Below, in pieces: positions 11,903 to 43,804 of a stretch of 64,000 nt of DNA (its first letter is position 1; every line of letters begins with the position of its first letter). The translations under genes and the position numbers were made by a program. Source of the stretch: Methylotenera sp. (lineage in GTDB: Bacteria > Pseudomonadota > Gammaproteobacteria > Burkholderiales > Methylophilaceae); the NCBI GenBank assembly GCA_013141075.1, contig JABFRQ010000005.1:620001-684000 (forward strand), in the 5' to 3' direction. The notes under the pieces are model-generated. The model saw only the letters and a list, made by a program, of their open reading frames with translations, searched no databases and was not told where the DNA came from.

Positions 11903-13726
11903 TTATTCCGATGACTTATTGGCTTCAGCGGCTGCTTTGGCGGCCTTCGCACGGGCTATGGCAGCGGCGATTTTTGCTTGCTTTTCTGCATCTGCGTTAC
12001 CAACTTCAGGTTTTTCAATCACTGGCTTTTCCAGCCCTACACTTTGGCGGCGTGCATCAATCTCAGCAATTTCTTGCTGAATGCTAACATTAGCGGGTTC
12101 AGTATTTTTTGGCGCTTCTCCACTTGCAGCCAACGCGGCTTTGGTGGCTTTTGCACGCTCAATCGCAGCGGCAATTGCGGCTTGTTTGGCGGCTTTTGCA
12201 ACATCGGCATCGGGTTTTTGAGCATCGCCAGCACCCGCATGGATATTGGCTCCCAGAGCATCATTATTTACTGTTTTTTCAGCTTGCACTCTGCCCGCTT
12301 CAGCTCTTTCAGCATGTTTTTGCGCGCGCTCTAGTTTCTCACGTTCAATTCTGGCAAGTCTAAAATCGTTACGTTCACGCGCTAAATCTGCCGCTTCTTT
12401 GGCTTTATCAATCGCGATAATTTCACTTTTTGCGTAGCGATAATATTGCACCAGCGGAATATCGCTTGGGCACACATAGGTGCAGCAGCCGCATTCTATG
12501 CAGTCAAATAAATTGTAATCGCGTGCTTTTTCAAAGTTGTCTGATTTTGAAAACCAGTAAAGTTCTTGCGGTTGCAAATTAACGGGGCAAGCATCGGCGC
12601 AGCGTGCACAGCGTATGCACGGCATGGCAGGTGGTGGCGCGGCAAATAAATTGGGCGCAGCGGCAATAATGCAATTGGCGGCTTTGGTAATAGGCACTTG
12701 CTCGCTTGGCAAGTCAAAGCCCATCATCGGGCCGCCCATAATGTAGTGTGTGGTTGCCGCTTTTGCGCCGCCAGCTGCTTTTATCAGCTCTGGTAGCGGC
12801 GTGCCAAATAGTACTTCAAAATTTTGTGGTGTTTGCACATTGCCTGTCACAGTGACGATACGGCTAATGGCAGGCTCACCCAGCGAAACATAACGGTAAA
12901 TTGCCCGCACAGTGGCGACGTTAAACACTTGCACGCCCATTTCAGTTGCGCGTTTATTGTGCGGAATTTCTAAGCCAGACACGAGCCGAATAAGCTGGCG
13001 CGCATCGCCACTTGGGTACAAAGTAGGCACAATACTCACGGTGATTGGCTTGCCAGCACATGCGGCTTGCATTGCGGTAATCGCCTGCGGTTTATTGTCT
13101 TCAATACCGATAATGCTTTTGCTCGCGCCCAATAAATGCTGCGCAATTTCAATGCCTTTGATGATTTCATCCGCGTATTCGCGCATCAGCATGTCATCGC
13201 AAGTAATATACGGCTCGCATTCTGCGGCGTTGATAATTAGCGTGTGTACGTTTGATTTTCCATTGCTACGTAGCTTAATGTGCGTTGGAAAAGTCGCGCC
13301 ACCAAAGCCTACAATGCCTGATTTGCATAAACTAGCTACCAACTCTTGCTTAGGCGTATTGTGCCAATCTAGTGCAGATAATGGTGCCCATGTTTCTTTC
13401 CCATCTGGAATAAGGGTGATGCATAAATCTGGCAAACCTGAAGGATGCGGAATAACTTCTTCGCTAATCGCGGCGATTGTGCCTGAAGTGGGTGCGTGAA
13501 TGGCCGCAGAGACCGCGCATTCAGGCGTGGCGAGTAGCTGCCCCTTTAAAACCGTGTCTCCTACGCTCACCAAAATTTTTGGCATATTGCCAATATGTTG
13601 GCGTAGCGGCAATACCAGCTTGCTCGGCAGCGGCAAGGTTGCTATTGGTAGTTGGGTAGATTCCGCTTTGTGTTCAGGCGGATGCACACCAGCTTTAGTT
13701 TTAAAAAAGTTAATAATTGCGTTCAA
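11903..13726 (-). CDS. rnfC: Electron transport complex subunit RnfC/RsxC, with a palindromic-repeat insertion in its C-terminal tail
   Basis: A peripheral subunit that binds NADH/FMN and two 4Fe-4S clusters. The 607 residues include [25 protein letters not shown], and the cluster motifs [12 protein letters not shown] and [12 protein letters not shown] (residues ~365-420). The C-terminal ~170 residues are Ala/Lys-rich helical repeats ([13 protein letters not shown] and relatives), as in many RsxC proteins. Within that tail the peptide [11 protein letters not shown] (~488-500) is encoded by a copy of the dispersed palindrome described separately, and the same peptide occurs in an unrelated GST gene at 26 kb. 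The start is TTG overlapping the rnfB stop as TTGA. The insertion sits in a flexible region and is unlikely to destroy function. Confidence 0.95.
12228..12261 (+). repeat. Palindromic element copy A, in frame inside rnfC
   Basis: A 34 bp block with the core GCATGGATATTGG, identical base for base to the reverse complement of 26315-26348 in the GST gene. Read on the rnfC strand it encodes [11 protein letters not shown]. It belongs to a family with at least four more diverged copies in this window. Confidence 0.85.
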
Positions 13727-14307
13727 TGTACTGCGTCTTTCAGTTTAACTTCGCTTAGTGGAATAGCCTTAATTGGAATAATCGGGTATTTCCATTTCCA
13801 ATTATCGGGCGTCACTTCAATTGGCTCCATAGTGATGCAATCCACAGGGCAGGGCGCCAAACATAGCTCACAACCTGTGCACTCGCTCGTAATAATGGTG
13901 TGCATGTGTTTGGCCGCACCTAAAATGGCATCTACAGGGCAAGCTTGAATGCACAAGGTGCAGCCGATGCAGGTTTGCTCATCAATAAACGCGACGGCTT
14001 TTGGTTTTTCTACGCCATTTTCAGCGTTAATCGGCTTGTACTCCACACCCATTAAATCAGCCAACGCATGTGCGCCAGCATCGCCGCCTGGTGGACATTG
14101 GTTAATGTCTGCTTCGCCTGCGGCAATGGCTGTGGCATAAGGCTTGCAGCCAGGGTAACCACACTGCCCACATTGTGTTTGCGGTAAAATAGCGTCAATG
14201 CGCGCGACTAATGGGTCGCCCTCAACTTTGAATTTAAGTGCGGCATAGCCTAAACCTAAACCTAAGACTAGCGCGAGGCCGAGCATAATGTATAAAGCGG
14301 TTAGCAT
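13723..14307 (-). CDS. rnfB: Electron transport complex subunit RnfB/RsxB
   Basis: A 194-residue iron-sulfur subunit. An N-terminal membrane anchor (~5-25) is followed by the Fe4S domain CGQCGYPGC (~45) and two ferredoxin motifs, [16 protein letters not shown] (~113) and [16 protein letters not shown] (~143). It passes electrons between RnfC and the membrane subunits. It starts 3 bp after rnfA and its TGA stop overlaps the TTG start of rnfC. It is short at the C-terminus, like gammaproteobacterial RsxB. Confidence 0.96.
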
Positions 14308-14310
14308 GCT

Positions 14311-14904
14311 TTAGTACTTATCCAGCCCAGCAAAGCCCATAAATGCTAGGCTCATCAGCGCGGCGGTGACCATGGCGATTGCTGAGCCTTGAAGCACTTT
14401 AGGAATATCCGCCGCTTCAAGCCGCTCGCGCATAGATGCAAATAAAATTAACACGAGTGAAAAACCAAGTGCGCCACCTAGGCCGAAAAATAATGACTCC
14501 ATAAAGCTGTGGCTGGCTTGTGCGTTTAATAATGGAATGCCTAGCACCGCGCAGTTAGTCGTAATCAGCGGTAAAAATATTCCTAAGCCTTGATAAAGCG
14601 GCGGAAAATTCTTCTCCATAACCATTTCAGTGAGTTGCACCACGCCAGCAATAATCACAATGAAAGATAGTGTGCGTAAATAAAGTAAACCGTTAGGCTC
14701 AAGCAAAAAATGGTTGATACCCCAGCTAGTCATAGAGCCAATACTCAGCACAAATGCAGTAGCATAAGCCATACCAATAGACGCTTCTAACTTTTTAGAA
14801 ACGCCCATAAATGGGCAAAGCCCAAGAATTTTAACCAGCACAATGTTATTCACAAGCACTGTGCTAATTAAAATCATGATGTATTGATGAAAATTTATTG
14901 TCAT
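14311..14904 (-). CDS. rnfA: Electron transport complex subunit RnfA/RsxA
   Basis: The first gene of the rnfABCDGE-nth cluster. The 197-residue, roughly six-helix membrane protein contains [31 protein letters not shown] and the C-terminal [12 protein letters not shown], all typical of RnfA. RnfA and RnfE are inversely oriented homologues that bind a 2Fe-2S cluster between them; the LCPF and NCAVL cysteines are the expected ligands. It is divergent from dapA across a 277 bp AT-rich gap that must hold the promoters of both. Confidence 0.96.
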
Positions 14905-15181
14905 TATGAAAATCTAAATTGTTACAGCAAAATTATACCGTGTTTACAAGCTGCTTAATCAAGCATAAGGCGGTTTGTACCAGTTTGACAGGCAATATAG
15001 CTAAAAATTTTTGCTGTAGCAAAGTATAATAAATTATACCTATATAGCTAAATAGAATATATGAGGCATTTATAAGCATTATCTCAGCTCAAACTATCTA
15101 TAGTGAAAGGTTTATTGACTAAGTTTTTATTTGGTAAGCTTTTAAGTTAAAATACAACATTCTAACTAGTTTAGGTTTGCT

Positions 15182-16057
15182 ATGTTGCAAGGTAGTTTAG
15201 TTGCTATTGTAACGCCCATGTTTGAAGACGGGCGTTTAGATATCCCATCACTGAATGCGCTGATTGATTTTCATATCGAGCAAGGCACAGATGGCATTGT
15301 GATTGTCGGCACCACGGGTGAATCACCTACGGTGGATTTTGACGAGCATTGCTTGTTAATCAAAACCGCTGTGAGCCAAGTGGCTGGCCGTGTGCCTGTC
15401 ATTGCAGGCACAGGCGCAAATTCAACAAAAGAAGCCATTGCGCTCACGCAAAAAGCTAAAGCGTTGGGTGTAGATGCTTGCTTGCTCGTAGCACCGTATT
15501 ACAATAAACCAACGCAAGAAGGCTTGTATCAGCATTTTATGGCTGTGGCGAATGCGGTAGATATTCCGCAAATTTTATACAATGTGCCAGGCCGCACAGG
15601 TTGTGACATTACTAATGACACGACTATTCGACTAGCGGCGCACAAAAATATTGTAGGCATTAAAGACGCCACAGGTGGCATAGAGCGTGGCACAGATTTA
15701 ATCTTACGTGCGCCTAAAGATTTTGCCATTTTAAGCGGCGATGATGCAACGGCTATGAGTTTAATGCTGCTCGGCGGCAAAGGCGTGATTTCAGTCACCG
15801 CTAATGTGGCACCAAAACTCATGCACGAAATGTGTGTGGCAGCGGTTGCTGGCGACACCATTAAAGCGCGTGAAATTAACGCAAAATTATTCCCGCTACA
15901 TCAAAAATTATTTGTAGAAGCGAACCCAATGCCCGTGAAATGGGTCTTAGCGCAGATGGGCTTGATTAAAACGGGCATTCGTTTACCTATGGTGCAAATG
16001 TCAGCGCAATATCATGATGTATTGCGTGCAGCTTGCAAACCAGCTGGCATTTTATAA
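15182..16057 (+). CDS. dapA: 4-hydroxy-tetrahydrodipicolinate synthase
   Basis: The first committed enzyme of lysine and meso-diaminopimelate synthesis; it condenses pyruvate with aspartate semialdehyde in the cytosol. The 291 residues show the class I aldolase barrel with GTTGESPT near residue 45, the catalytic Tyr in [10 protein letters not shown] (~133), and the Schiff-base Lys in VGIKDATGG (~161). The dapA-bamC pairing is common in proteobacteria. Confidence 0.98.
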
Positions 16058-16099
16058 ATAAGCATGAAGCTTTAATACAGAATTTTTAAAGAGGTTTGA

Positions 16100-17371
16100 A
16101 TGAAATCATTAAATGTTAAGCAATTAAATATTAAACAAAGTGTTATTTATGCGCTGGTAATTGCGAGTTTAAGTGCTTGCGACTCTATACCATTTATCAA
16201 TAACACTTCAGATTATAAAGGCGCGGGTCGCTCTAAGCCGCTAGAAGTGCCGCCAGATCTCACGCAGAGCCCAGTGAGTGATGCTTACTCTATTCCTGGC
16301 AGTACCAATTATTCAACCTACAGCCAAGCGCAAGAAGGCCAAGAAGTTGGCGTTGAAAAAGTATTAGCCACACCAGAGGGCGTTCGCTTAGAAAAAGCAG
16401 GTGGGCAACGTTGGTTAGTCGTCAATGCGCCAGCTGAAAAAGTATGGCCAGTTATACGTGAGTTTTGGGCTGATCAAGGTTTTGCCGTGCGCTCAGAAAA
16501 TGCGCTACTAGGTGTGATGGAAACCGAATGGATAGATGCTGAAACCATTAAAAAAGACACATCAGGTAATATTGGTGATAAATTTGATAAATGGTTAGAT
16601 AAATTATCTGGCTTTGCCGATAAAAAGAAATTTAAAACGCGTTTAGACCGTGGCAACGAACCAAATACCACAGAAATTTACATGACACACCGCTCTGTTG
16701 CAGGCGCGCAAGATGACGGTAAAAACAGGGTGAAGACACAGTTTGGTGAAATTGACCTAGGCTATAAAGCAGATGCGAAAAAAGCACCTGTAGCAGATGC
16801 AAGGGACGCCGAGTTAGACGATGAATTATTACGCCGCTTGATGGGGAAATTAGGCGTTGAAGAACAAAAATCTAAATCGATTATCGCCAATGCAGTGGTA
16901 GCAAAACGCGCAGAAGTGGTTAAAGAAGCTGATGGTAGTGCAACATTATTACTGAATGACCCATTCGACCGCGCATGGCGCCGTGTTGGCTTAGCGTTGG
17001 ATAGAATTGGTTTTGTCATTGAAGATAAAGATCGTTCAACAGGCGTGTTTTTTGTGCGATATGCCGATGTTGACATTGATGACACGCCACAGAAAAAGAA
17101 AGGTTTGTTAGAAAGCTTAAAATTCTGGGGCAATGACGATAAAAAAGAAGCCGAAGCATCGCCTAAAGAAGAAAAAAGCATGGTTGAAAAGCTTAAATTC
17201 TGGGGTACGGATGATAAGCAAAAAACTAACCCAGAAAAACAATACCGCATTAAAGTGGCTGATGGCGCTAAAGAAGACGCGACAGTGACTGTGGTAGATA
17301 AAGAAGGTGCACGCGTTAAAACTACAACGGCCAACCGCATTGTGGCGTTGATGTACGAGCAGTTGAAGTAG
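16100..17371 (+). CDS. bamC: Outer membrane protein assembly factor BamC (lipoprotein)
   Basis: A lipoprotein subunit of the beta-barrel assembly machinery. It has a lipoprotein signal ending SLSAC (Cys ~27), the unstructured N-terminal segment with SKPLEVPPDLTQ that contacts BamD, and two helix-grip domains (~100-230 and ~275-423). At 423 residues it is longer than E. coli BamC (~344). Much of the excess is a charged insertion in the second domain (~335-385) with an internal duplication: LLESLKFWGNDDKK and MVEKLKFWGTDDKQ. AAAGAGG supplies the ribosome-binding site. It follows dapA by 42 bp and precedes the MBL hydrolase by 9 bp. Confidence 0.93.
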   Translation: MKSLNVKQLNIKQSVIYALVIASLSACDSIPFINNTSDYKGAGRSKPLEVPPDLTQSPVSDAYSIPGSTNYSTYSQAQEGQEVGVEKVLATPEGVRLEKAGGQRWLVVNAPAEKVWPVIREFWADQGFAVRSENALLGVMETEWIDAETIKKDTSGNIGDKFDKWLDKLSGFADKKKFKTRLDRGNEPNTTEIYMTHRSVAGAQDDGKNRVKTQFGEIDLGYKADAKKAPVADARDAELDDELLRRLMGKLGVEEQKSKSIIANAVVAKRAEVVKEADGSATLLLNDPFDRAWRRVGLALDRIGFVIEDKDRSTGVFFVRYADVDIDDTPQKKKGLLESLKFWGNDDKKEAEASPKEEKSMVEKLKFWGTDDKQKTNPEKQYRIKVADGAKEDATVTVVDKEGARVKTTTANRIVALMYEQLK

Positions 17372-17380
17372 CCTAAAAAT

Positions 17381-18169
17381 ATGCGTTTTGCCTCACTAGG
17401 TAGCGGCAGTGCTGGCAATTCGCTTGTAGTAGAAGTCAATAAAACTATGCTAATGCTCGATTGTGGCTTTAGCATTAAAGAAACTGTCGCTAGGCTTGCG
17501 CGCTTAAACGTTGAGCCTAGCACCCTTGCTGGCATTGTGATTACGCATGAGCATGATGACCACGCGGGCGGCGCTTTTAAATTTGCCGCTAAATATCAAA
17601 TTCCCCTCTGGCTCACTTATGGCACACTTAAAATGGTGTCGCGCGCCTTACCAAATCAACGCGGGCCAAATCAGCATCAATTAAAGTTAAATATTGTTGA
17701 TAGCCACAGTGCATTTGCTGTCAATGATGTGCAAGTTCAACCTTACCCCGTGCCGCATGACGCACGCGAGCCAATTCAATGCGTATTTAGTGACGGCAAC
17801 CATAAGCTAGGTGTGCTGACTGACGTAGGTTGCACAACGCCGCACATAGAAGCGCAACTAAGCGGCTGCAAAGCATTAGTACTAGAATGTAACCACGATG
17901 CTAGTATGCTGCAAAACGGGCCGTATAGTTGGGCACTTAAACAGCGCGTGGGCGGTGACTTAGGTCATTTGGAAAATTCAGATTCTGCAAAACTATTATC
18001 AAAATTAGATAACAGTCAATTACAGCATATTGTGGCGGCACATTTAAGCGCTAAAAATAATACCCCCGCGCTAGCTAAAGCAGCTTTGGCTAAAGTATTA
18101 AACTGTGAAAACAACGATATTGGTATTGCCGACCAGCAATTAGGATTTGATTGGATAGTACTAAATTAG
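17381..18169 (+). CDS. YycJ/WalJ-like metallo-beta-lactamase-fold hydrolase
   Basis: A 262-residue MBL-fold protein. It begins MRFASLGSGSAGNSLVVEV, carries the zinc motif THEHDDHAGG (~58-67), and later HDAREPIQ, LTDVGC and an ECNHD segment. This is the cytosolic YycJ/WalJ group, which has 5'-3' DNA exonuclease-type members, rather than a beta-lactamase. It lies 9 bp after bamC, so co-transcription is likely. The exact substrate is unknown. Confidence 0.88.
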   Translation: MRFASLGSGSAGNSLVVEVNKTMLMLDCGFSIKETVARLARLNVEPSTLAGIVITHEHDDHAGGAFKFAAKYQIPLWLTYGTLKMVSRALPNQRGPNQHQLKLNIVDSHSAFAVNDVQVQPYPVPHDAREPIQCVFSDGNHKLGVLTDVGCTTPHIEAQLSGCKALVLECNHDASMLQNGPYSWALKQRVGGDLGHLENSDSAKLLSKLDNSQLQHIVAAHLSAKNNTPALAKAALAKVLNCENNDIGIADQQLGFDWIVLN

Positions 18170-18181
18170 ATTGAAAAATAG

Positions 18182-18220
18182 ATGCCCTGAGAGCCGCTCT
18201 GCTATTGGCTTGCAGGGCAT
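18182..18220. repeat. Palindromic element copy E, between genes
   Basis: ATGCCCTG and CAGGGCAT form perfect 8 bp outer arms around a core ending TATTGGCTTG. It aligns with the other copies of the GCATGGATATTGG family, though the left half of the core is diverged (GCTCTGC in place of GCATGGA). It lies just after the MBL gene and could also act as a transcript-end hairpin. Confidence 0.75.
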
Positions 18221-18298
18221 GTGTTTGTATGCTTAGGTTGGCTAATTTGGTTTAGTGGTGTTGCTGATTAGTGATTATGTGAATGAAAACTTAAAATA

Positions 18299-18326
18299 AA
18301 AAAAGCCGACTAAAAGTCGGCTTTTT
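18299..18326. terminator. Bidirectional Rho-independent terminator
   Basis: AAAAAGCCGAC and GTCGGCTTTTT form a perfect 11 bp stem with a 5-base loop, with A/T runs on both sides. It can end the Ala-rich lipoprotein transcript (minus strand) and the dapA-bamC-MBL transcript (plus strand). Confidence 0.88.
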
Positions 18327-18346
18327 AATAGCTTACTAACAGCTAA

Positions 18347-18595
18347 TTACTGAGCAGCAGCTGGAGCAGCTTCAACTACTGCAGCAGCAGCGTCAGCGGC
18401 AGCAGCTGGAGCAGCTTCAACAGCAGCAGCGGCAGCATCAACAGCTGGAGCAGCTGCATCAACAACAGCTGGAGCAGCTTCAACAGCAGCTTCAACAGCT
18501 GGAGCAGCTACTTCAGTAGCAGTTTCAGCAGCTTTTTCGCCACAAGCAGTAACAGCAAGAGCCAATAGTGCAGCAAGTAATAGTGAACGTGTCAT
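18347..18595 (-). CDS. Small Ala-rich lipoprotein of unknown function
   Basis: An 82-residue protein with a lipoprotein signal (LLALAVTAC, Cys ~18). The remainder is almost only Ala, Glu, Val, Pro and Asp in degenerate repeats such as VEAAPA. The gene has its own terminator just downstream and AAGGAATT before the ATG. Low-complexity composition makes homology useless. Outer-membrane or periplasmic helical filler proteins of this type are common in betaproteobacteria. The DNA repeats could change copy number by slippage. Confidence 0.75.
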   Translation of the reverse strand: MTRSLLLAALLALAVTACGEKAAETATEVAAPAVEAAVEAAPAVVDAAAPAVDAAAAAVEAAPAAAADAAAAVVEAAPAAAQ

Positions 18596-18777
18596 TTTTA
18601 ATTCCTTAAGGTTTATAACTAGTTAAAAAAACTTTTTTCGATAAATGCTTAAAAAGTTTTACCTAATTAGCTATACCGAGTGGCGCAAATTTTACCAGCA
18701 ATTTAAAAAAACGCTAGTATTTTCATACCATAACCTAAAAATAAGTACAAAATAGTCAGAAATATACAACAATTAAA

Positions 18778-19611
18778 CTAGTCTACGCGAATAGTAAGGG
18801 CATTATCTTGCAATTGATTGCTGATTGACCTACTTAAAATTGCGCGGCTCACCTCATCTTTTTGCTGCATTGTGCTACCTAAATCAAACCACTCTCCTTT
18901 ATTCACGCGCACTATTGTGCTGAGTTCTTCAAAATCTATAAAGCCAGCTTGGTTCAATTGCGCAATTCTCGGCGTGATTTCTAATTCTACTTGGTTACCA
19001 ATGCTACGCGCCCGCACTGCAAAGCCAGTGGAAATGTCTACAAATTCTGTGGTGCGTTGCACGCGAATGTAGCGGTGCATGTAGGTAACCCATTCTTGCG
19101 TAAACGGCACAGATTGCCCCACGCGAATAAATGCTTGCCCGCCATCTAGTACGTTAATAAATTGGTTACTATTGCTACGTGTATTACTTTGATTGTTTTC
19201 GATGTCAATTTGCACACCATCTGGCGCGCGCCTAGAGGTACGATTAGTGCCAATCACTACATTGCCGATACGCTTCTGCCCGCTCACCGCTACGCCGTTA
19301 CGCGAAGTTTGCTGGCTATTTTGGCGGTTGACGGTAATTTTTAAATTTTGTTGCGCTGCGTCTAAACTTGCAATGGTTTGCTCAATTTCTAGCATTCTTT
19401 CTGGGCTTGCACGAATGATTAAATGATTTTGCATGCCAGTTACGGCGCCATCTTCGCCCGCTAGCGGCTGAATAATCGGCAGAATATCTTCAACAAAACG
19501 ATGTTGTAAGGTGATAATTTTGAAATCAGTCACTGCCAGCGCTTGAGTTGGCAGCATTAGCGCTAATAAAATACTGCAAGCTAATAATAAACGGTGGACA
19601 AATGCCTGCAT
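18778..19611 (-). CDS. Secretin N-domain (STN)-like periplasmic protein
   Basis: A 277-residue protein with a signal peptide (~1-26, ending QALA). It has a secretin N-type nodule: LQHRFVEDILPIIQPLAG, then NHLIIRASPERMLEIEQTIA (~60-85). The Arg/Asn-rich middle and C-terminal GQSVPFTQEW and LEITPRI resemble the start of a secretin beta domain. It is too short to form a secretin pore and has no type II secretion genes nearby. It sits 2 bp after the DUF7931-like gene in a three-gene minus-strand operon with the roxA-like gene. Its role is unknown. Confidence 0.75.
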   Translation of the reverse strand: MQAFVHRLLLACSILLALMLPTQALAVTDFKIITLQHRFVEDILPIIQPLAGEDGAVTGMQNHLIIRASPERMLEIEQTIASLDAAQQNLKITVNRQNSQQTSRNGVAVSGQKRIGNVVIGTNRTSRRAPDGVQIDIENNQSNTRSNSNQFINVLDGGQAFIRVGQSVPFTQEWVTYMHRYIRVQRTTEFVDISTGFAVRARSIGNQVELEITPRIAQLNQAGFIDFEELSTIVRVNKGEWFDLGSTMQQKDEVSRAILSRSISNQLQDNALTIRVD

Positions 19612-19613
19612 GG

Positions 19614-20111
19614 TTAAAGCCCTAAATTGGTCACGGTGACTTTGTTTTGTGTAGCTTCTAACAACTCTTCAAAGCGCGAATTTAACTGCCGCACCGTTTC
19701 TGGATCGTCCAACGCATACTTAAAGCGCGCTTGGTCTATATGAATGCGCTTAATGTAATGCTTGCCATCGGCCAATATAAAGCAGTCTTTGGCGTGTTTG
19801 GCGGTGTCATTTGTTTCATGCACGGTCATTTTGTGGCCGTAAGTTTCTAGCAACTTCAATAAACGCGGACATTTTTCTTGAAAAAACACCGTACTTTGTA
19901 AAACAATGGTGAGGTGGCTGTTAATATTGCCGCTCAAAAACTGTTCAAAAAGCGCAATTTTTTGCAAACTAGCAAAATCACCACGGCTTAAATCTTGGTC
20001 AAAAATCAGCAATTCAGCTCGCGCATTGGTTAAAATAATGCTGATTGCCTCAGCGTACAGGCGCTCTCCAGCTAGTATTTGATTGGGTGTAAGTGTTAAA
20101 TTATTGTCCAT
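19614..20111 (-). CDS. Conserved hypothetical protein (DUF7931-like)
   Basis: A 165-residue soluble protein without signal peptide or membrane helix. It contains RAELLIFDQDLSRGDF and later DCFILADGKHYIKRIH, a pattern reminiscent of the phospholipase-D-like fold but without HKD motifs. I recognise it only as a conserved betaproteobacterial family found next to a RoxA-like gene; the DUF number is from memory. It is encoded 21 bp after the roxA-like gene and 2 bp before the STN protein. Confidence 0.65.
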   Translation of the reverse strand: MDNNLTLTPNQILAGERLYAEAISIILTNARAELLIFDQDLSRGDFASLQKIALFEQFLSGNINSHLTIVLQSTVFFQEKCPRLLKLLETYGHKMTVHETNDTAKHAKDCFILADGKHYIKRIHIDQARFKYALDDPETVRQLNSRFEELLEATQNKVTVTNLGL

Positions 20112-20132
20112 AAAAATAATTCAATATTAAAG

Positions 20133-21311
20133 TTAAGTATTAAAGTTTAAATAACCAGCCACATACCAATCATAAAGCTGCTGTAATAAGTTTTCATCAA
20201 AAATCGTACCAGCTTCAATACGGCGATTATCTGCCAACAATTTTAGTATGTTTGCTGATTCTCCTGCAAATATAGCCAACTCACCATTCATAAAAAATGA
20301 ATCGCCAAAAAATAACATTTGGCTTTTTAGGTCAAGTGCGATGCCAAGCTTGGCGAGTTTGTCAGCAAAGGCTTTGGCAGATATTTTTTTATTCGCTTCA
20401 AATACTACATCTGGCTTAGGTTCTGAGAGATATGTACCTAAAAACTCTGCTACCAAAGCATCTGACCATTTAATTTTTTGTAAGTTTGCACTCACTTTAC
20501 TAACCATTTCTTTGCCAATTTCGGCAGGATGAGTTTGCAAACTTAAATCTGCATCGCTGTAAATTCCATCTAAAGTTAGCTTATTATCTTGATTCAATTG
20601 GTCTTGCATAAAACCTAAAAACTCAGTTGCTAGCTCCTGATTTTTTGGCGCTCTAAAACCTATAGAATATGTCATGCAGTCATCAGCGCCGTCGGACACT
20701 GCAATGCCCCAATGCGCCAGCTGTGGCGGTAAGTAGAGCATATCCCCCGCTTCTAGCAGCCATTCTTGCGCGGTTTCAAAGTTTTGCAAAATACGCAAAG
20801 GCGCGCCTTCAATTAGCGCTAAATCCGTTTGCTCGCTCACGCGCCATAAGCGCTTGCCTTGGCCTTGTAGCAAGAATACATCGTAACTATCAAAATGCGG
20901 CCCCACGCCGCCGCCATTGGGTGCATAACTCACCATTAAGTCATCAAGCCGCGCATGGGGAATAAAATTAAACTGCTGTAATAAAGCTGTGGCTTCAGGC
21001 AGATAATGGTTCACGCTTTGTACTAGCAAAGTCCAATTGTGATTTGGCGTTGGATTTTCAGGCAAGTTTGCAAAATCTTCATCTTCAAACGGGCCGTGGT
21101 GTGCGAGCCATTTTCCTTTTTTAAATTCCACAATGCGCGATTGCACATCGTCTTCGCAAGCCAAGCCAGCCAGCTCATCAGGGCTTAATAAACCTGTGAA
21201 ATTAGGGATTGCTTGCTTGATGAGCAGGGGTTTTTTTTGCCAGTATTCAGCCAAAAATTGCGCAGGCGTTAAGCCACCAAGTAATGGAAATGGTTTAATA
21301 TTGGTCGTCAT
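20133..21311 (-). CDS. roxA: Cupin/JmjC ribosomal protein uL16 arginine hydroxylase (RoxA/YcfD-like)
   Basis: A 2-oxoglutarate/Fe(II) oxygenase that, in E. coli YcfD, hydroxylates an arginine of ribosomal protein uL16. The 392 residues show the JmjC fold with the iron motif H-x-D in GPHFDSYDVFLLQGQGKR (~138) and the distal His in LPPQLAHWGIAV (~205), followed by a winged-helix C-terminal region. The N-terminal LTPAQFLAEYWQKKPLLI is a strong group signature. The length matches the family (~370-390). It is first in an operon with two genes of unknown function. Confidence 0.87.
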   Translation of the reverse strand: MTTNIKPFPLLGGLTPAQFLAEYWQKKPLLIKQAIPNFTGLLSPDELAGLACEDDVQSRIVEFKKGKWLAHHGPFEDEDFANLPENPTPNHNWTLLVQSVNHYLPEATALLQQFNFIPHARLDDLMVSYAPNGGGVGPHFDSYDVFLLQGQGKRLWRVSEQTDLALIEGAPLRILQNFETAQEWLLEAGDMLYLPPQLAHWGIAVSDGADDCMTYSIGFRAPKNQELATEFLGFMQDQLNQDNKLTLDGIYSDADLSLQTHPAEIGKEMVSKVSANLQKIKWSDALVAEFLGTYLSEPKPDVVFEANKKISAKAFADKLAKLGIALDLKSQMLFFGDSFFMNGELAIFAGESANILKLLADNRRIEAGTIFDENLLQQLYDWYVAGYLNFNT

Positions 21312-21459
21312 TTTAATAATTTTTTTGCATGGTCAGATAAATGTTAATTATGCCATTGCATTGCTAGACAGGTTGGTCTATATTTAGGCTAATTTACAAA
21401 ATAAAAGTTAATTGTAATCATTCTGAAAATAAGTTTGCCGTAATTTTGAGGAGAGTGCT

Positions 21460-23589
21460 ATGAACGCCCCAGTTGATGCTTCTATTAAAACCTTTCACGG
21501 CGGTTGCCCGCACGATTGCCCAGACACTTGCAGTATGGTGTTTCATGTAAAAGATGAAAAACTCATCGCGGTGACAGGCAACACAGAGCACCCGATGACG
21601 CGCGGCGGCTTGTGCGTTAAACTCAAAGATTACGAAAAACGGCATTATCACCCAGACCGCCTACTTTACCCCATGAAGCGCACAGGCCCCAAAGGCAGCA
21701 AGCAATTTACGCGCATTACTTGGGATGAAGCGTTAGATACCATTGTTGATAAATGGCAGGGCATTATTAAAACAGACGGCCCGCGTGCCATTATGCCCGC
21801 CAGTTATTTAGGTAACCAAGGGCTAGTGCATGGTTTAAATGGTGGCGATGCGTTTTTTAACAAATTGGGCGCGACTGTTTGTGAAAGAACATTTTGTGGT
21901 GAAGGCTCATGCACCGCATGGTTGCTCACTGTTGGGCCAACGGGTGGCGTTGACCCTGAAAGTTTTATTCACAGCAAATTCATTATTATTTGGGCGTGCA
22001 ATTCCGTTTCTACCAATCTGCATCATTGGCATATTGTGCACGAGGCGCAGAAAAAAGGCGCAAAAGTGGTGGTGATTGACAGTTACGCCTCAAAAACCGC
22101 TAAAGAAGCTGATTGGCACATTGCCCCAAAACCTGGCACCGATGGTGCGTTAGCCATGGCGATGATGCACGTGATTATTGAAGAAAATTTAGTTGACCAA
22201 GACTATGTAGATAACTACACGGTTGGCTATAAAGAACTCGCCGCACGCGCCAAAACCCGTACGCCTGAATGGGCAGAGCAAATTACAGGCATCGCTGCCG
22301 CAGATATTCGCCAATTAGCACGTGAATACGCCACCACGCCACCAGCGGCAATTCGCATGGGCATTGCTTTAGAGCGCAATTATGGCGGCAGCCAAGCGAT
22401 TCGCGCGGTTACCTGCTTGCCCGCGCTGATTGGCGCTTGGCGGCATGTGGGCGGCGGCGTGCTGCAAATGCCAATTTGGGAGCATCCGTATGATTTTATG
22501 ACCATGTGCCGCCCTGATTTAATCCCAGAAGGCACGCCAGTGGTGAATATTCTGCAACTTGGGCGCGCACTCACGGGTGAGTTAAATCTCGAAACACCGA
22601 TTAAATCGCTCATGGTGTGGAACACCAACCCTGTAACGCAATCGCCAGAAACCGATAAAATTGTGGCAGGTTTGCAGTGTGAAGATTTATTCACCATTGT
22701 GGCCGACCATTTTATTTCAGACACCGCCGCCTATGCCGACATCATTCTGCCAGCCGCCATGGGCGCAGAGATGGAAGATATTATCGTGTCATGGGGGCAT
22801 TTTTATCTCACGTATAACGCCAAATGTATTGAGCCGCCAGCCGAAGCAATCCCCAATAACGAGATTTTCCGCCGCCTTGCCAAACGCATGGGCTTTACCG
22901 AGCCGCAATTTAGTTGGTCTGATAGCGAATGCCTAGAGCACTACATTAACTGGAGCGCGCCAGTGTGCGAAGGCATTGATGTAGCTTACCTACGCGAGCA
23001 CGGCTTTGCACGCCTAAAAGTGGGCACAAAAGATGACCGCGCACCGCACAAAAATGGCAACTTCCCCACGCCCACAGGCAAGGTAATGCTCATGGTTGAG
23101 GGTGCTAAAAACTTTGTGGCTGGGCCTTTCCGCCAAATGTACGATGGCTTTCAGCCAGGGCAAGATTTAGACCCGCTGCCAGATTATTTAGCCTCGCGTG
23201 AATCGCCTGAGAGCAACCCAGCGTTAGCGGCCAAATATCCGCTCAGTATAATTACGCCCAAAAGCCACGGATTTTTAAACTCGTGCTATGCGAATATGAC
23301 GGATAAAATTAAAAAACAAGGGGAGCAATACGTGCTCATTCACCCAGCAGATGCCGCCATGCGCAACATTGCAGAAGGCGCCAAAGTGCGCGTGTTTAAT
23401 GACCGCGGCGCGTTTGAGGCGCAGGCGAACATTACGCAAGATGTGAACCCAGGTTTGGTTGTTTCGCCGCTTGGTTATTGGCGGCAGTTGAATAAGGGCA
23501 CGGCCAACTCCATTAGTTTGGCGGAGTTTGGGGATATGGGCAACTCGGCGAGTTTTAGTGATAATTTGGTTGAAGTGGAGTTGGGATAA
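21460..23589 (+). CDS. Molybdopterin-dependent oxidoreductase
   Basis: A 709-residue catalytic subunit of the bis-MGD molybdoenzyme (DMSO reductase) family. The N-terminal 4Fe-4S site is CPHDCPDTC...GLCVK (~11-50); the central molybdopterin domains include PGTDGALAMAM and ERNYGGSQAIRA, and the C-terminal cofactor-binding domain begins near SIITPKSHGF. There is no twin-arginine signal, so it acts in the cytosol. There is no partner subunit beside it. GAGGAGAG gives a good ribosome-binding site. Substrate is not predictable; close families are annotated only as 'molybdopterin oxidoreductase'. Codon use is noticeably more GC-rich than its right-hand neighbour. Confidence 0.92.
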   Translation: MNAPVDASIKTFHGGCPHDCPDTCSMVFHVKDEKLIAVTGNTEHPMTRGGLCVKLKDYEKRHYHPDRLLYPMKRTGPKGSKQFTRITWDEALDTIVDKWQGIIKTDGPRAIMPASYLGNQGLVHGLNGGDAFFNKLGATVCERTFCGEGSCTAWLLTVGPTGGVDPESFIHSKFIIIWACNSVSTNLHHWHIVHEAQKKGAKVVVIDSYASKTAKEADWHIAPKPGTDGALAMAMMHVIIEENLVDQDYVDNYTVGYKELAARAKTRTPEWAEQITGIAAADIRQLAREYATTPPAAIRMGIALERNYGGSQAIRAVTCLPALIGAWRHVGGGVLQMPIWEHPYDFMTMCRPDLIPEGTPVVNILQLGRALTGELNLETPIKSLMVWNTNPVTQSPETDKIVAGLQCEDLFTIVADHFISDTAAYADIILPAAMGAEMEDIIVSWGHFYLTYNAKCIEPPAEAIPNNEIFRRLAKRMGFTEPQFSWSDSECLEHYINWSAPVCEGIDVAYLREHGFARLKVGTKDDRAPHKNGNFPTPTGKVMLMVEGAKNFVAGPFRQMYDGFQPGQDLDPLPDYLASRESPESNPALAAKYPLSIITPKSHGFLNSCYANMTDKIKKQGEQYVLIHPADAAMRNIAEGAKVRVFNDRGAFEAQANITQDVNPGLVVSPLGYWRQLNKGTANSISLAEFGDMGNSASFSDNLVEVELG

Positions 23590-23699
23590 AGCGGCTACTA
23601 AATTACTAGGGTAGGAAAAGCTAGCTGCCCTAGTAGCTATTCATATTAAAAATTGATTATTAGTTCTTTGTTTGTATAACTTATGAATATAATAAGACT

Positions 23700-24605
23700 A
23701 TGAGAAAATTAAAAGCTTTTTTGAGTAATCCTGTCTGGCAAGGGCTCAGCGTTCTTATTACAGTTATTGGCATTTTTCTAAGCATTTCAAATTCAAAATC
23801 AAACGAAGTCTCAATAATACCAACTGAAAAATTTACTCACCTAAGTGAATATTTTCCTGACTCCAAAATAAAATTTACTATTGAGGGTGAAACGTCAAAT
23901 TTAGACAATTTATATTATAGGTATTTTTATGTTTATAACAATTCCAACTTACCTCTAACAGCAGATGATTTTAAAAAGAAAATTAGTGTCAAGTCCAGAA
24001 ATTCAAATTTTGAGATTCTTTTGGTTAGTTCTTGTAGAAATAAAAATGAGCTAAAGGAAATGTCCCAAATAAGTGAGCCCCAGTTTAACTGGTCTAAATC
24101 TAAACAAGGCTGGGAGTTGGAGCCAGAACTGTTAAATTCAGAAGAAGGTGGTTGCGTGATAATGGTCGTTCGTAACTTTCCTCAAGACCAAACTGGTATT
24201 GCTGATATTAAAGAGTCAGACTTTATATGGGATGGAAGGATAGTAGGAACTAGGCTAAAAATTTATTCTAGCCCAGAGGAGTATTGGGAAAGTAATACTA
24301 ATATAACTAATTACTTACAAGTTACAGTGGCTTTTGGTACAGAAGGTGTACTTTGGTTTTTAGTCCTACAGTATTTCCTTTTTATAGTACCTTTATATAT
24401 TGCTGAAAAAATAAAAGTTATTTTTTTACAAAATGTTAATAATGCGTATATTTTTGTTCTTTTTTCAATCACGACATCCGAAATTTTAGTTTCAAAGTTT
24501 ATTAATGGAAATCAACAGCATCCAGTTGTTTGGCCTTTACTGTTAATGCATTTACTATTATTTATATATTTAGCATATAGAACATACAAATTAAATAAGG
24601 TATAA
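23700..24605 (+). CDS. Membrane protein of unknown function, AT-rich
   Basis: A 301-residue protein that I do not recognise. It has one N-terminal membrane segment (~15-32), a soluble domain of ~190 residues probably outside the cytosol with two or three cysteines, then three hydrophobic segments (~222-240, ~250-270, ~275-295). Base composition is clearly richer in A and T than the neighbours, which suggests recent acquisition. A TATAAT at 23688-23693 lies only 6 bp before the ATG, and no ribosome-binding site is obvious, so the mRNA may be leaderless or the real start may lie further in. Confidence 0.65.
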   Translation: MRKLKAFLSNPVWQGLSVLITVIGIFLSISNSKSNEVSIIPTEKFTHLSEYFPDSKIKFTIEGETSNLDNLYYRYFYVYNNSNLPLTADDFKKKISVKSRNSNFEILLVSSCRNKNELKEMSQISEPQFNWSKSKQGWELEPELLNSEEGGCVIMVVRNFPQDQTGIADIKESDFIWDGRIVGTRLKIYSSPEEYWESNTNITNYLQVTVAFGTEGVLWFLVLQYFLFIVPLYIAEKIKVIFLQNVNNAYIFVLFSITTSEILVSKFINGNQQHPVVWPLLLMHLLLFIYLAYRTYKLNKV

Positions 24606-24649
24606 CTTATTTATGTTGTGTTGAGTAGTCGCTTTCGCGCGACTAGCGA

Positions 24650-24683
24650 GTTACTTTTTCTTGCTTAGCCAAGAAAAAGTAAC
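24650..24683. repeat. 14 bp inverted repeat at the start of a gene-free repeat-rich stretch (24606-25041)
   Basis: GTTACTTTTTCTTG and CAAGAAAAAGTAAC form perfect arms around a 6-base loop. Just before it is a smaller hairpin, AGTCGC/GCGACT. Read through on the plus strand the repeat gives SQEKVTKKKATPY, a phrase seen in many spurious small proteobacterial ORFs, so this is a common intergenic repeat and the open frame to 24891 is probably not a gene. The rest of this stretch holds only the long inverted repeat at 24911-24992. Confidence 0.7.
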
Positions 24684-24910
24684 CAAAAAGAAGGCTACCC
24701 CCTACCGCTTGTTTCCTGCGCTACTCAGCTTCATGGGCGGCAATCGGAAACTCGCCAAAAAAAGCACTTGGCTCAAACAGCCGCTTGCCGAAACCACCCA
24801 TGAAACTGAGCAGCGCAGGCGCGGTAGCAGGGGATTTGAGGTCAAAACCAGTAGGCTGGGTAACATTGAAATTTCACGGCTGTATATTTAATTCATAAAA
24901 CTCTCAAACT

Positions 24911-24992
24911 CCGTCATCCTCGCGAAAGCGGGGATCCATTTTAGGTTTTTGTTTAAATCCAAATTGGATCCCCGCTTTCGCGAGGATGACGG
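24911..24992. repeat. Long perfect inverted repeat (28 bp arms)
   Basis: Arms 24911-24938 and 24965-24992 are exact reverse complements (each contains CGCGAAAGCGGGGATCCA or its complement) around a 26-base AT-rich loop. This is the widespread 'GTCAT...CGCGAAAGCGGGGATCC' intergenic element. It lies 49 bp before pyrD and would form a very stable RNA hairpin. A short relative is at 42962-42989. Confidence 0.88.
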
Positions 24993-25041
24993 CGGCGGTG
25001 TGCAATTTTGGGTAAGTTACATAATGAAGTAAAATCACGTT

Positions 25042-26073
25042 ATGGATATTTACTCACTCGCAAAACCGTTGTTGTTTCAGTTTGATGCTGAAGCCGCGCA
25101 TGATTTCACTTTAAAAACTCTCAAGCTGGCTGAAAAAACAGGGGCGTTATCGCTTTACCCTGCGCCGCCTGTGTGTGCGCCTCGGCAGGTGATGGGCATT
25201 ACATTCCCCAATCCCGTTGGTTTGGCGGCAGGTTTGGATAAAAACGCTGCGGTGATTGATGGCATGGCGGCGCTTGGCTTTGGTTTTATTGAGGTTGGCA
25301 CGGTCACGCCGCGCCCGCAACCTGGCAACCCTAAGCCGCGCTTATTTCGCGTGAAAGAGGCGCAAGGCATTGTGAATCGCTTTGGTTTTAACAATTTGGG
25401 CGTAGATAATTTAATCGCGAATGTAAAAGCCGCCAAATATAAAGGTCTGACTTCTAATCAAATACTTGGCATTAACATCGGCAAAAACTTTGATACGCCT
25501 ATGGAAAATGCGGTGGATGATTATTTAATTTGCATGCAAAAAGTATATGCATATGCGACTTATATTACGGTGAATATTTCATCGCCCAACACTAAAAACT
25601 TGCGTGCTTTGCAAGAAAAAGAAGCACTTTCTAGCTTGCTGGCAACGCTTAAATTAGAGCAAACCAAGCTGGCAAATCAGCATGGTAAATATGTTCCAAT
25701 TACCTTAAAAATAGCGCCAGACTTAGAGCTGAGCCAAATCAATGAAATTGCAGATTTGCTAATGGAGCACAAAATTGATGGCGTAATTGCCACAAATACA
25801 ACCTTGGCGCGTGACATGGTAAAAGGCATGGAACATGCGGAAGAAGCTGGCGGGTTGTCTGGCGCGCCAGTGCGTGAAAAATCAACGATGGTGATTCAAC
25901 AATTATCGCAACGCTTGCAAGGCGCGTTGCCAATTATTGGCGTGGGCGGTATTTTAAGCGGGGCAGATGCCGTAGAAAAAATTGCAGCAGGTGCTGACCT
26001 TGTGCAAGTTTATAGCGGGCTGATTTATAAAGGGCCTAAGCTGGTGCATGATGTTTGCAAATCGCTAGGTTAG
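25042..26073 (+). CDS. pyrD: Dihydroorotate dehydrogenase (quinone), class 2
   Basis: The fourth step of pyrimidine synthesis: oxidises dihydroorotate to orotate and passes electrons to the quinone pool at the inner membrane. The 343 residues have the class 2 N-terminal amphipathic extension (to ~40), the FMN barrel beginning [13 protein letters not shown], the catalytic Ser in TVNISSPNT (~175), and IGVGGILSG and [13 protein letters not shown] near the C-terminus for phosphate binding. A GST-like gene follows after 12 bp. Confidence 0.97.
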
Positions 26074-26085
26074 ATAAAAGTTGTA

Positions 26086-26700
26086 ATGGCACTACCAATT
26101 TTATATTCTTATCGCCGCTGCCCCTATGCTATGCGTGCAAGAATGGCGCTCAAGTTGGCGAACATTGATGTGGAAATTCGCGAGATTTCACTGCGCGAAA
26201 AACCTGCCCACATGCTGAAAGTTTCCCCCAAAGGCACCGTGCCTGTGTTGGTGTTGCAAGATGGAAGTGTGATTGAACAAAGTTTAGAAATCATGCAATG
26301 GGCATTAAAACAGCATGCTCTGGGAGCCAATATCCATGCGGGTGCTGGAGCATCTGTTTTAGGGCTTATTTCAGAGAATGACGACGCATTTAAACGTGCT
26401 TTAGATGCCTACAAATATCCCGAACGCTACCCCAACAAAACACAAACACAACATCGAGCAGACGGTGAAGTTTTTTTGAAAAAGCTGGAAAACTTGCTGT
26501 TAGAGAATAGCAATTTATTCAGCGTCGCGCCTAGCTTGGCTGATATCGCGGTATTTCCGTTTGTACGGCAGTTTGCGGCGGTGGATGCGGCTTGGTTTGA
26601 AAATTCGCCTTATCCGAAATTGCAGACTTGGCTAAAAAAATTGGTTGAATCTGAATTATTTAACAGCGTGATGGAAAAACAGCCAACTTATATTGCATAA
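26086..26700 (+). CDS. Glutathione S-transferase-like protein with a palindromic-repeat insertion
   Basis: A 204-residue GST-fold protein. The thioredoxin-like N-terminal domain begins LYSYRRCPYAMRARMAL with a CPYA motif (Cys ~12); PKGTVPVLVLQDG and IEQSLEIMQW form the glutathione-binding edge; the C-terminal helical domain includes NDDAFKRALDAYKYPERYP. Between the domains, at ~77-87, the peptide [11 protein letters not shown] is encoded by a copy of the dispersed palindrome. Relatives usually have a short acidic loop there. The fold should tolerate it, since the linker is surface-exposed. It lies 12 bp after pyrD. Confidence 0.88.
   Translation: MALPILYSYRRCPYAMRARMALKLANIDVEIREISLREKPAHMLKVSPKGTVPVLVLQDGSVIEQSLEIMQWALKQHALGANIHAGAGASVLGLISENDDAFKRALDAYKYPERYPNKTQTQHRADGEVFLKKLENLLLENSNLFSVAPSLADIAVFPFVRQFAAVDAAWFENSPYPKLQTWLKKLVESELFNSVMEKQPTYIA
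26315..26348 (-). repeat. Palindromic element copy B, in frame inside the GST-like gene
   Basis: The reverse complement is identical over 34 bp to 12228-12261 in rnfC. In both genes the coding strand reads GCCAATATCCATGCG in the same frame and yields [11 protein letters not shown]. Extended outward, ATGCTC and GAGCAT pair as an outer stem. Confidence 0.85.
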
Positions 26701-34337: not shown

Positions 34338-34850
34338 TTAAAATCTAACACCTTCTGATGAATCATGAATAATCAATAAATTGTTTATACGTTTCCGAAT
34401 GTCAGCATCATCATTTACAGAGCTGAGCCACTGGTCAACAGAATCTGCTATATCATTGCAAAATATGTCAACTTGTAGCTGTAATGTATTATTGGACTGA
34501 TTGCAGTGGATATGACAACCTGGAATAGGTGTAATAAAGTGAAAGTCTTCTAAGGCTTTTTGCGCTCTCTGCATTTCAATATTGGAGCCGCCTTCATGTA
34601 AATAGCAACACCTCAAGGCGTAACAATCTTCACCATGAAGAAACACACGCTTTATACGATTCGGCCCAACTTCTGATGTATATTTTGATTGTACCCAAAC
34701 ACGAAACCAATCAACATATCTTGCTTGAGAGCCTGAGTTAGGTTTTTCCAACCGACCACAAACATCTGGTAACGTTAGTGCAGTTGATAAAGCACCATAC
34801 CAATCATTTGCTTGTATCGATTTTCGGATTGAATCAGTAAATCTATGCAT
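34338..34850 (-). CDS. Conserved hypothetical protein with a possible HEPN-like motif
   Basis: A 170-residue soluble protein. The start is ATG 34850 with AGGA upstream; a longer frame to 34898 lacks support. The N-terminal part has FTDSIRKSIQANDWYGALSTALTLPDVCGRLE; the middle has GEDCYALRCCYLHEGG, an R-x4-H arrangement like the catalytic motif of HEPN RNases. I know similar proteins only as scattered hypotheticals. It interrupts the usual tgt-yajC neighbourhood, which suggests insertion. The HEPN idea is an inference from one motif. Confidence 0.6.
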   Translation of the reverse strand: MHRFTDSIRKSIQANDWYGALSTALTLPDVCGRLEKPNSGSQARYVDWFRVWVQSKYTSEVGPNRIKRVFLHGEDCYALRCCYLHEGGSNIEMQRAQKALEDFHFITPIPGCHIHCNQSNNTLQLQVDIFCNDIADSVDQWLSSVNDDADIRKRINNLLIIHDSSEGVRF

Positions 34851-34937
34851 ACTATATCCTAGTAATTGTAGTGTGTGCAAATGGGTTGTTATTTGCACAT
34901 CTTTTTTAGATTTCTCTTCAAGGAGCTTAAAGTAACT

Positions 34938-34974
34938 TGCCCTGCGACCCGCATGGATATTGGTTTTTAGGGCA
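34938..34974. repeat. Palindromic element copy C, between genes
   Basis: TGCCCT and AGGGCA are the outer arms; the centre is CCCGCATGGATATTGG, exact over the family core. It lies between the hypothetical gene at 34.3 kb and tgt, both on the minus strand. Confidence 0.82.
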
Positions 34975-34990
34975 TGTCTTTTTTAATAAT

Positions 34991-36160
<1,170 letters not shown>

Positions 36161-36209: not shown

Positions 36210-36848
36210 ATGGCTTCAAGCGATGAAAACCGTCGTCCGCTAACCACGCGCAGCATGGTTTGGGCAAAATGGTTGGCAAATATGTTGGTAAAAACCAATA
36301 TTTCGCCCAATCAAATTTCAGTGCTAAGTATTTTACCTGCCCTAGCAGGCGCATGGATATTGGCTTGCAGGCCTGCCCCTTTAAGTGCGTATTGGTTGAT
36401 TTTGGTTGCGCTGTGTATTCAATTGCGTTTGCTGTGCAATATGTTAGATGGCATGGTGGCGATTGAAGGTGGCAAGCAATCTAAAGTAGGCATTTTGTAT
36501 AATGAGATTCCAGATCGCATTGCGGATTCTTTATTTATTGTGGCGTTGGGTTACGCTATTGCGCTGCCGTGGCTCGGTTGGTTGGGCGCGTTGTTGGCGG
36601 CTAAAACGGCGTATATTCGGGTGCTGGGCGGCGCGAATGGGTTGGTGCAAGATTTTCGTGGGCCGCTCGCCAAGCCGCATCGCATGTTTGTGATGACATT
36701 GGGCTGCTTAATTGCTGCGGTAGAGTTGCAATTTAACGGCACAATGTTAGCGCTTACTATCACAGCAACCATTATTACAATTGGCTCTGGCATTACTTGC
36801 GTTACGCGTACTTTGGCCATTGCGCAACAGCTCAAAGTAAAACAATAA
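36210..36848 (+). CDS. CDP-alcohol phosphatidyltransferase family membrane protein
   Basis: A 212-residue protein with about five helices. The CDP-alcohol transferase signature is loose: NMLDGMVAIEGGKQSK, then GILYNEIPDRIADS. The acidic residues that hold the divalent metal are there, but the usual A-R pair after DG is not. It resembles E. coli YnbA. It starts a compact run of phospholipid genes. Residues ~45-56 (LAGAWILACRPA), in the first hydrophobic stretch, are encoded by a copy of the dispersed palindrome in the orientation opposite to rnfC/GST. The stop overlaps the acyltransferase start (TAATG). Confidence 0.85.
   Translation: MASSDENRRPLTTRSMVWAKWLANMLVKTNISPNQISVLSILPALAGAWILACRPAPLSAYWLILVALCIQLRLLCNMLDGMVAIEGGKQSKVGILYNEIPDRIADSLFIVALGYAIALPWLGWLGALLAAKTAYIRVLGGANGLVQDFRGPLAKPHRMFVMTLGCLIAAVELQFNGTMLALTITATIITIGSGITCVTRTLAIAQQLKVKQ
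36338..36374. repeat. Palindromic element copy D, inside the CDP-alcohol transferase gene
   Basis: TGCCCT on the left and GCAGGC on the right flank the exact core GCATGGATATTGGCTTGCAG. Here the gene reads the plus strand of the core as AWILA, unlike the ANIHA reading in rnfC and the GST gene. The hydrophobic reading fits a membrane helix. Confidence 0.78.
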
Positions 36849-43698: not shown

Positions 43699-43737
43699 AG
43701 GTTGAATAAGCTCGGAATTACACTCGAGCGAAAATCA

Positions 43738-43776
43738 CTGCCCTGCAGCCCGCTCTGGATAAGGCTCGCAGGACAG
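43738..43776. repeat. Palindromic element copy F, between convergent genes
   Basis: CTGCCCTGC...CAGGACAGT are the arms, with centre GCCCGCTCTGGATAAGGCT. It aligns over its length with copies C and E but is diverged in the core. It lies between the HAD gene (plus) and the ccsA-like gene (minus). Confidence 0.65.
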
Positions 43777-43804
43777 TAGGTTTGATGAAGCTAATTTCAC
43801 ACGT

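Follow-up and report, generated by a model that had tools for sequence, protein, structure and literature searches.

The genome of a Methylotenera sp. (assembly GCA_013141075.1) carries a real, genome-wide, untagged element resembling the repetitive extragenic palindromes (REPs), a repeat of about 45 bp of which several copies lie in the 64,000-nt window analysed here (contig JABFRQ010000005.1, positions 620,001 to 684,000). Two things about it are unusual: host sequence was replaced in register in about half of the genes that we compared, and its hairpin tip also occurs in viral contigs. The explanation that we favour, tentatively and with a probability of about 0.46, is that this REP-like element has spread by short-patch copying and partly serves as transcription terminators.

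A palindromic repeat in the window and across the genome

The original prediction had described two 34-bp blocks, at 12228-12261 (+) in rnfC and 26315-26348 (-) in a GST-like gene, as exact reverse complements that add the same 11-residue peptide to a flexible tail and to an inter-domain loop. All 34 of the 34 bases matched, BLAST of the block returned positions 632228-632261 of contig C1 of this genome (G000) with 100% identity, and both open reading frames (ORFs) read the identical peptide. The limits of the Pfam domains agreed with the proposed placements: in RnfC, whose best relatives among named genomes were Methylotenera metagenome-assembled genomes, the Fer4 matches end at residue 423 and the peptide lies behind the Fe-S domain, at about 487-497, and in the GST-like protein it lies between GST_N_3 (6-78) and GST_C_2 (131-184). 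The 13-nt core of the block, GCATGGATATTGG, occurs four times exactly in the window, and two of these occurrences (34951 and 36351) had been missed, as had two variants with other loops (18180-18224 and 43736-43780). An unfiltered scan of the window with a covariance model built from 51 copies gave six loci of at least 22 bits in the 64 kb:

12221..12265, + strand: element copy 1, core 12237-12249, 55.8 bits; inside rnfC (11903-13726, -), encoding the 11-residue peptide
26311..26355, - strand: element copy 2, core 26327-26339, 56.8 bits; inside the GST-like gene (26086-26700, +), encoding the 11-residue peptide
34935..34979, + strand: element copy 3, core 34951-34963, 54.5 bits; intergenic, between ORFs 34991-36106 (-) and 34338-34898 (-), just beyond the 3' end of 34991-36106
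36335..36379, + strand: element copy 4, core 36351-36363, 50.1 bits; in a CDP-alcohol phosphatidyltransferase-like gene (36210-36848, +), the third coding copy in the window, read in another frame (peptide AWILA)
18180..18224, + strand: variant copy with loop GCTCTGCTATT, 35.6 bits; intergenic, between convergent ORFs 17381-18169 (+) and 18347-18595 (-)
43736..43780, + strand: variant copy with a different loop, 22.4 bits; intergenic, between convergent ORFs 43030-43698 (+) and 43805-44623 (-)

In the whole genome (2.48 Mb in 11 contigs, 90% complete) we found 53 exact cores, 25 on the + and 28 on the - strand, and none with the reversed-pattern control, so the element is far from being confined to the two sites first noticed. 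Two of these cores, L001 and L002, share one duplicated stretch (98% over 1015 nt). This duplication, which involves the first kilobase or more of contig C1 (C1:1-2822 and C1:57110-60122), is either real or an assembly artefact. The aligned copies formed an imperfect palindrome with the consensus ATGCCCTGCGASCC - GCATGGATATT - GGCTCGCAGGGCAT, in which arms of about 13 nt flank an 11-nt loop, most commonly GCATGGATATT. The covariance model found at least 143 matches at E ≤ 0.1 in the genome, a lower bound given that 150 of 1957 candidates were scored, and the density in the window extrapolates to some 230 copies genome-wide. Sixty of 61 non-exact model matches tried could be mapped and 57 of them had a loop of 11 nt; among these 57 (the three of odd length being excluded from the tally) alternative loops were carried on the same stem, GCATGGATACT in 21 and GCATGGATGCT in 5, with rarer ones such as GCTCTGGTATT and GCACCAGCATT. 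Sixteen further matches, in apparent cassette arrays, were listed separately (C8:20991 stands in both lists). A known structured RNA family was rejected, since 15 loci gave no Rfam match at the gathering score; below threshold, one scan gave six weak matches, two of which (mir-9209, E 0.015 and 0.093) lay on the hairpin itself.

Copies inside genes and between genes

Sixteen exact copies are coding, 14 according to the gene caller and two by reading (L003 and the copy at 36351 of the window). One frame, giving AL-x-A[NS]IHA, was used by 10 of these 16 and by 13 of 18 non-exact coding copies, that is, by 23 of 34 (p = 5e-11 against 1/6); with the gene caller alone the count was 10 of 14 exact coding copies, and in three other genomes, where 30 of 120 exact copies were examined, it was 6 of 10 coding copies. 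The idea of a repeated palindromic family with members in frame in unrelated genes was supported. ThiC, HscA, MurU and an MNIO-type maturase were identified above the NCBIfam cut-offs, a prephenate dehydrogenase and a photolyase matched their families below the cut-off, and RnfC, GST and the CDP-alcohol phosphatidyltransferase were assigned by Pfam; the names GlnE, ATP-grasp, DUF2878 and desaturase given to other hosts are our own readings. The peptide was not retained where the DNA element was missing. All 29 RnfC tails that could be read (34 loci tried) and 20 of 22 usable GST orthologues (30 loci, less this genome, two without result and five unusable rows) lacked NIHA, and the two GST orthologues with NIHA, in genomes G331 and G727, also carried the DNA element. 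In the G727 gene (L270) a second, different palindromic repeat is apparently nested in the element, giving a loop region of 141 nt with the frame kept. Genome G262 has three exact cores within about 600 bp (L244), called inside two genes.

Ten coding genes were then compared with orthologues of the same genus, sites L005, L006, L027 and L037 being left out. Five of them showed no net change in length: ThiC (6 of 6 orthologues), the photolyase (5 of 5, of which G331 shares the element and four are without it), HscA (2 of 2), and the ATP-grasp and DUF2878-like proteins (one orthologue each). For the photolyase, HscA and ATP-grasp genes the DNA aligner placed balanced gaps in the block (net 0), and MAFFT or protein alignments were ungapped; the +1 nt seen at L365 is an end effect, the protein alignment being ungapped. 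TyrA, unchanged against three sisters and 12 nt longer than in G718, was not counted among the five because those sisters carry a near match. The remaining genes differed by less than the unit of about 45 nt. GlnE was 18 nt longer (6 of 6 orthologues), MurU was longer by 39 nt than in G284 and by 18 nt than in G331, itself a carrier of the element, the GST gene exceeded that of seven near sisters by 12 nt and that of six more distant relatives by 3 nt, and RnfC differed by -10 to +3 nt. At the GST site the near sisters have a look-alike loop 12 nt shorter, perhaps a decayed copy, and the farther relatives a different loop; an empty site with joined flanks was not seen among the orthologues compared, nor was a clean gain of a whole unit between intact flanks at any of the ten sites. 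The comparison to Rickettsia palindromic elements (RPEs) that had been drawn for the pair therefore stands as regards a repeated palindromic family lying in frame in unrelated genes and is unsupported as regards clean insertion, of which the alignments gave no instance. The identical length of element-free relatives in five of the ten genes indicated that host sequence had been replaced in register.

The 37 exact intergenic copies lay in 21 convergent, 15 tandem and one divergent gap, compared to 15, 97 and 26, respectively, among 138 core-free gaps that served as background, each 40 bp or longer and located in the window or in the stretches fetched around copies. Convergent gaps were thus in excess (21/37 vs 15/138, Fisher 2e-8) and divergent ones in deficit (1/37 vs 26/138, Fisher p = 0.019). 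Mean folding energy was -18.0 kcal/mol for 38 copies classed as intergenic (one of which, L016_2901, turned out to be coding) and -10.8 for 15 coding copies (p = 5e-5), and the ten positions before the left arm held 5.3 A in the former vs 2.7 in the latter (p = 2e-5). At least five T in 10 nt were found at 19 of the 38, and at least five A upstream at 27. In tandem gaps the orientation of the core was mixed, 6 in the same (including L003, later read as coding) and 10 in the opposite direction. The intergenic copies resemble bidirectional terminators, and their position, hairpin stability and partial A/T tracts make a terminator role plausible.

Comparison with relatives also revealed changes at intergenic sites. 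At L010 two relatives are without the element, G296 lacking about 53 bp and G284, which has a short A/T inverted repeat, about 42 bp; this was the sole full-size presence/absence seen, and at this single usable full-size site no target-site duplication, looked for as a sign of a MITE, was evident by eye. An unrelated hairpin takes the place of the element in G331 at L012 and in G296 at L009. Between orthologous copies the loop was found inverted with the stem kept at L009 (in G331 and G222) and at L047 (in G331), and in the related viral contigs L461 and L472 the orientation of the tip differs relative to a common gene; at the GST site the loop of G331 has the same orientation as in this genome. 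Inversions of this kind are easier to reconcile with dynamics at the DNA level than with a loop that a protein reads in RNA, and inversion at two sites is what a hairpin with a flippable spacer would be expected to show.

Spread of the copies and alternative explanations

Several copies share sequence in blocks. Fourteen non-exact copies have the right closing GC in common, followed in 12 of the 14 by CTCGCA (the same right arm), and in 12 of the same 14 the left CC had not been repaired, so that pairing is broken by the GC. Thirteen pairs of copies share at least 75 nt in register, and in 10 of them the common sequence is confined to one side and breaks off at the core or arm (L013/L030 on the left, L013/L018 and L020/L041 on the right, L041 and L033 pairs on the left). 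The domain of the REP-associated tyrosine transposases (RAYTs), PF01797 (Y1_Tnp), was not found in this 90% complete genome, RAYT being the one transposase family searched for. Y1_Tnp was present in 49 of 150 genomes of the family but in only one (G331) of the 10 high-copy genomes, those with at least 10 exact cores. A RAYT-driven REP is consequently unsupported here, and the shared blocks, together with the lack of a RAYT in this and in eight other high-copy genomes, lead us to favour short-patch recombination or template switching as the probable route.

According to the explanation that we prefer, the element would spread by one or the other of these routes, with no dedicated transposase. 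A single-stranded hairpin or an existing copy may act as template, and partly matching sequence would be overwritten. Intergenic copies would act as bidirectional terminators of transcription, and the coding copies may be survivors that happen to read as a mild Ala/Gly-rich peptide.

Several observations weigh against this explanation. The full-size presence/absence at L010 is the pattern expected from insertion. The relatives compared are about 80% identical in DNA, so that an apparent overwriting could be many substitutions accumulated over time, and the sequences of the ThiC and DUF2878-like families already resemble the encoded peptide, so that drift could help there. A mobilising enzyme could be missing from a genome that is 90% complete. 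Of the 13 block-sharing pairs, one is accounted for by the duplicated stretch, and two others (L030 with each of the L041 copies) have both flanks in common. Genes had been called by a home-made scorer, and the background gaps came mainly from stretches surrounding copies. As to the terminators, the higher T content behind the right arm was not significant (p = 0.08), and A and T tracts occurred together in just 14 of 38 copies. Covariation between the arms was weak (71% of cells paired; 28 both-side changes vs 20.1 ± 4 after shuffling, reached in 6 of 500), which leaves selection for a folded RNA unproven.

Some of the same data would be accounted for by a REP- or RPE-like mini-element moved in trans by an unrecognised transposase, the copies with zero length change being trimmed old insertions or late substitutions. 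Besides L010, the +39 nt of MurU against G284 and the uneven occurrence in the family (10 or more cores in 10 of 150 genomes) point that way, and REPs and RPEs inside genes are known from what parts of two sources describe (PMC3733652, PMC2229807). Nevertheless, the net length was unchanged against element-free relatives at five of ten coding sites, the only transposase domain searched for did not follow high copy number, and the REP tags were missing: GTAG stood at one end of 2 of 53 copies (shuffled mean 9.1) and CGTC likewise of 2 of 53 (shuffled mean 6.2). We consider trans-mobilisation unlikely.

In the family, 51 of the 150 genomes have the core. In a class sample of 369 genomes a 15-mer occurred in 2 of the 368 others, about chance level; by eye, one of these two resembles the repeat of genome G132, a multicopy sequence reaching contig ends (L186-L188, L190) with the core on a GGAAGCC/GGCTTGCAG stem, perhaps the end of an insertion sequence. 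Several single matches in the order and family samples fall in a conserved coding stretch, YRGMDIGTAKP, which we take to be miaA. An initial scan of IMG/VR with a 16-mer gave 28 stretches in which coding matches were mixed with the tip, and a 23-mer of the chromosomal form gave no match there. The 21-nt hairpin tip AACCCGCATGGATAYTGGCTT was found in 44 viral stretches, although by our own estimate less than one would be expected by chance even in 100 billion bases. Among these stretches 37 sequences are distinct; 34 of the 37 contain GATACT, and the flanking 12-mers that they have in common sort them into 21 groups. Repeated 10-mers lay within 200 nt of the tip in 25 of the 37, compared to 103 of the 370 windows used as control; exact outer arms of at least 6 nt were present at 13 of 36 viral tips (shuffled-partner mean 6.8, maximum 16) and of at least 8 nt at 9 of 36; and of 13 loci examined, 8 have the tip beyond the 3' end of a gene that by eye resembles a primase/helicase. 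The viral tips therefore have the loop and closing pairs of the chromosomal repeat and differ from it in their flanks, in the long outer arms of a minority, in their enrichment near direct repeats and in the position of several past primase-like genes. We found no published name for this tip. BLAST matches in plasmids and phages were weak (E 0.3 to 1) and are leads only, such as one in plasmid 2b and one in an IncFIA region, where repE and the gene of a site-specific integrase lie on either side. In G000 itself, same-strand variants stand in rows, 11 on contig C5 (L353, C5:1-19990) and five on C8 (L354, C8:10000-23000), mostly with a GCATGTTTATT-like loop and nearly all just behind repeated GTTAGGGC- or AAACGTTAGGGC-like ends, between small ORFs; by analogy with attC sites, these rows look like integron gene-cassette arrays whose cassettes carry the hairpin. 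A quite improbable extension of the copying scheme is that the tip (AACCCGC-ATGGATAYT-GGCTT) would be a portable hairpin, recognised by machinery common to phages and Proteobacteria chromosomes and multiplying by overwriting with no added length. If true, terminators and genes alike would be targets of a kind of selfish palindrome which spreads by converting the sequence it meets and not by inserting itself.

An uptake signal might also change genes without indels. Under such a scheme, comparable to the DNA uptake sequences and uptake signal sequences (DUS/USS), biased uptake and recombination would pull near-matches to the consensus, and the hairpins would be terminators. Uptake signals do occur in terminator hairpins and have an orientation bias in genes, as far as the relevant sections of PMC1852404 and PMC2346458 go, and here too the change in genes was free of indels and one orientation favoured. 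Orthologues of ThiC (6 of 6), TyrA (3 of 4) and DUF2878 matched the block better than other windows of the same stretch, a result that alignment and conserved protein sequence alone would yield. On the other side, the 53 exact cores compare with about 1000 or more uptake signals in the part of PMC1852404 that counts them, the window holds no cloud of near-matches (7 within two mismatches, including the 4 exact, vs 2.5 expected), the single core sits in the loop, and the linked, non-compensated variants shared as derived features within sub-families point to copying. Judged from these sequence comparisons, the uptake scheme would be very doubtful.

Still less probable, and indeed highly improbable, is that the core is an RNA-binding loop of the CsrA type (GGA in the loop). 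AUGGAU in the loop, which we take as a CsrA motif, and the 3' positions speak for it; no CsrA family match was found in the genome, the core is oriented both ways in tandem gaps, and at two sites orthologous copies have the loop in opposite orientations. Convergence, or a single duplication, as the origin of a peptide common to two genes is refuted by the exact and modelled copies, nothing having been found in its favour, and can practically be set aside.

Relation to known repeats and other observations

Palindromic repeats within genes are known outside Rickettsia, in O. terrae, Thioalkalivibrio and Xanthomonas according to the portion of PMC3733652 that treats them. Like the REPs of the GTAG/CGTC super-families presented there, our repeat is a short palindrome found mostly downstream of genes, in convergent or tandem gaps, and in some cases within genes. 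In contrast to those REPs, it has no GTAG/CGTC tag, its 11-nt loop is near-fixed, no link to a RAYT was seen, and several coding copies brought no change in length. With RPEs it shares the palindromic form and the in-frame position in many unrelated protein genes; RPEs are, however, 105-146 bp long in the excerpted account of PMC2229807, compared to about 45 bp here, and this repeat is often an in-register replacement instead of an insertion of the whole unit, with terminator-like intergenic copies. Literature searches (core strings; Methylotenera palindromic repeats; Burkholderiales REPs; palindromic elements in genes; conserved phage hairpins) found no description of this repeat.

The repeat offers a natural case in which a palindrome appears to enter conserved genes (ThiC, HscA, photolyase and others) by in-register replacement, bringing a single peptide that is mostly tolerated. 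Confirmation at strain level would mean that short palindromes can be copied with no dedicated transposase; it would also connect repeats of the chromosome to a hairpin tip present in many viral contigs, and supply ready candidates for bidirectional terminators.

Two other features of the window concern different sequences. At 24911-24992, between genes, lies a different, near-perfect inverted repeat of the CCGTCATCCTCGCGAAAGCGGGGATCC type with 38-nt arms (92% complementary), which is another palindromic repeat family. The ORF at 18347-18595, next to the variant copy at 18180..18224, encodes Ala/Pro/Val repeats behind a lipoprotein-like start and is built from a 13-copy direct repeat.

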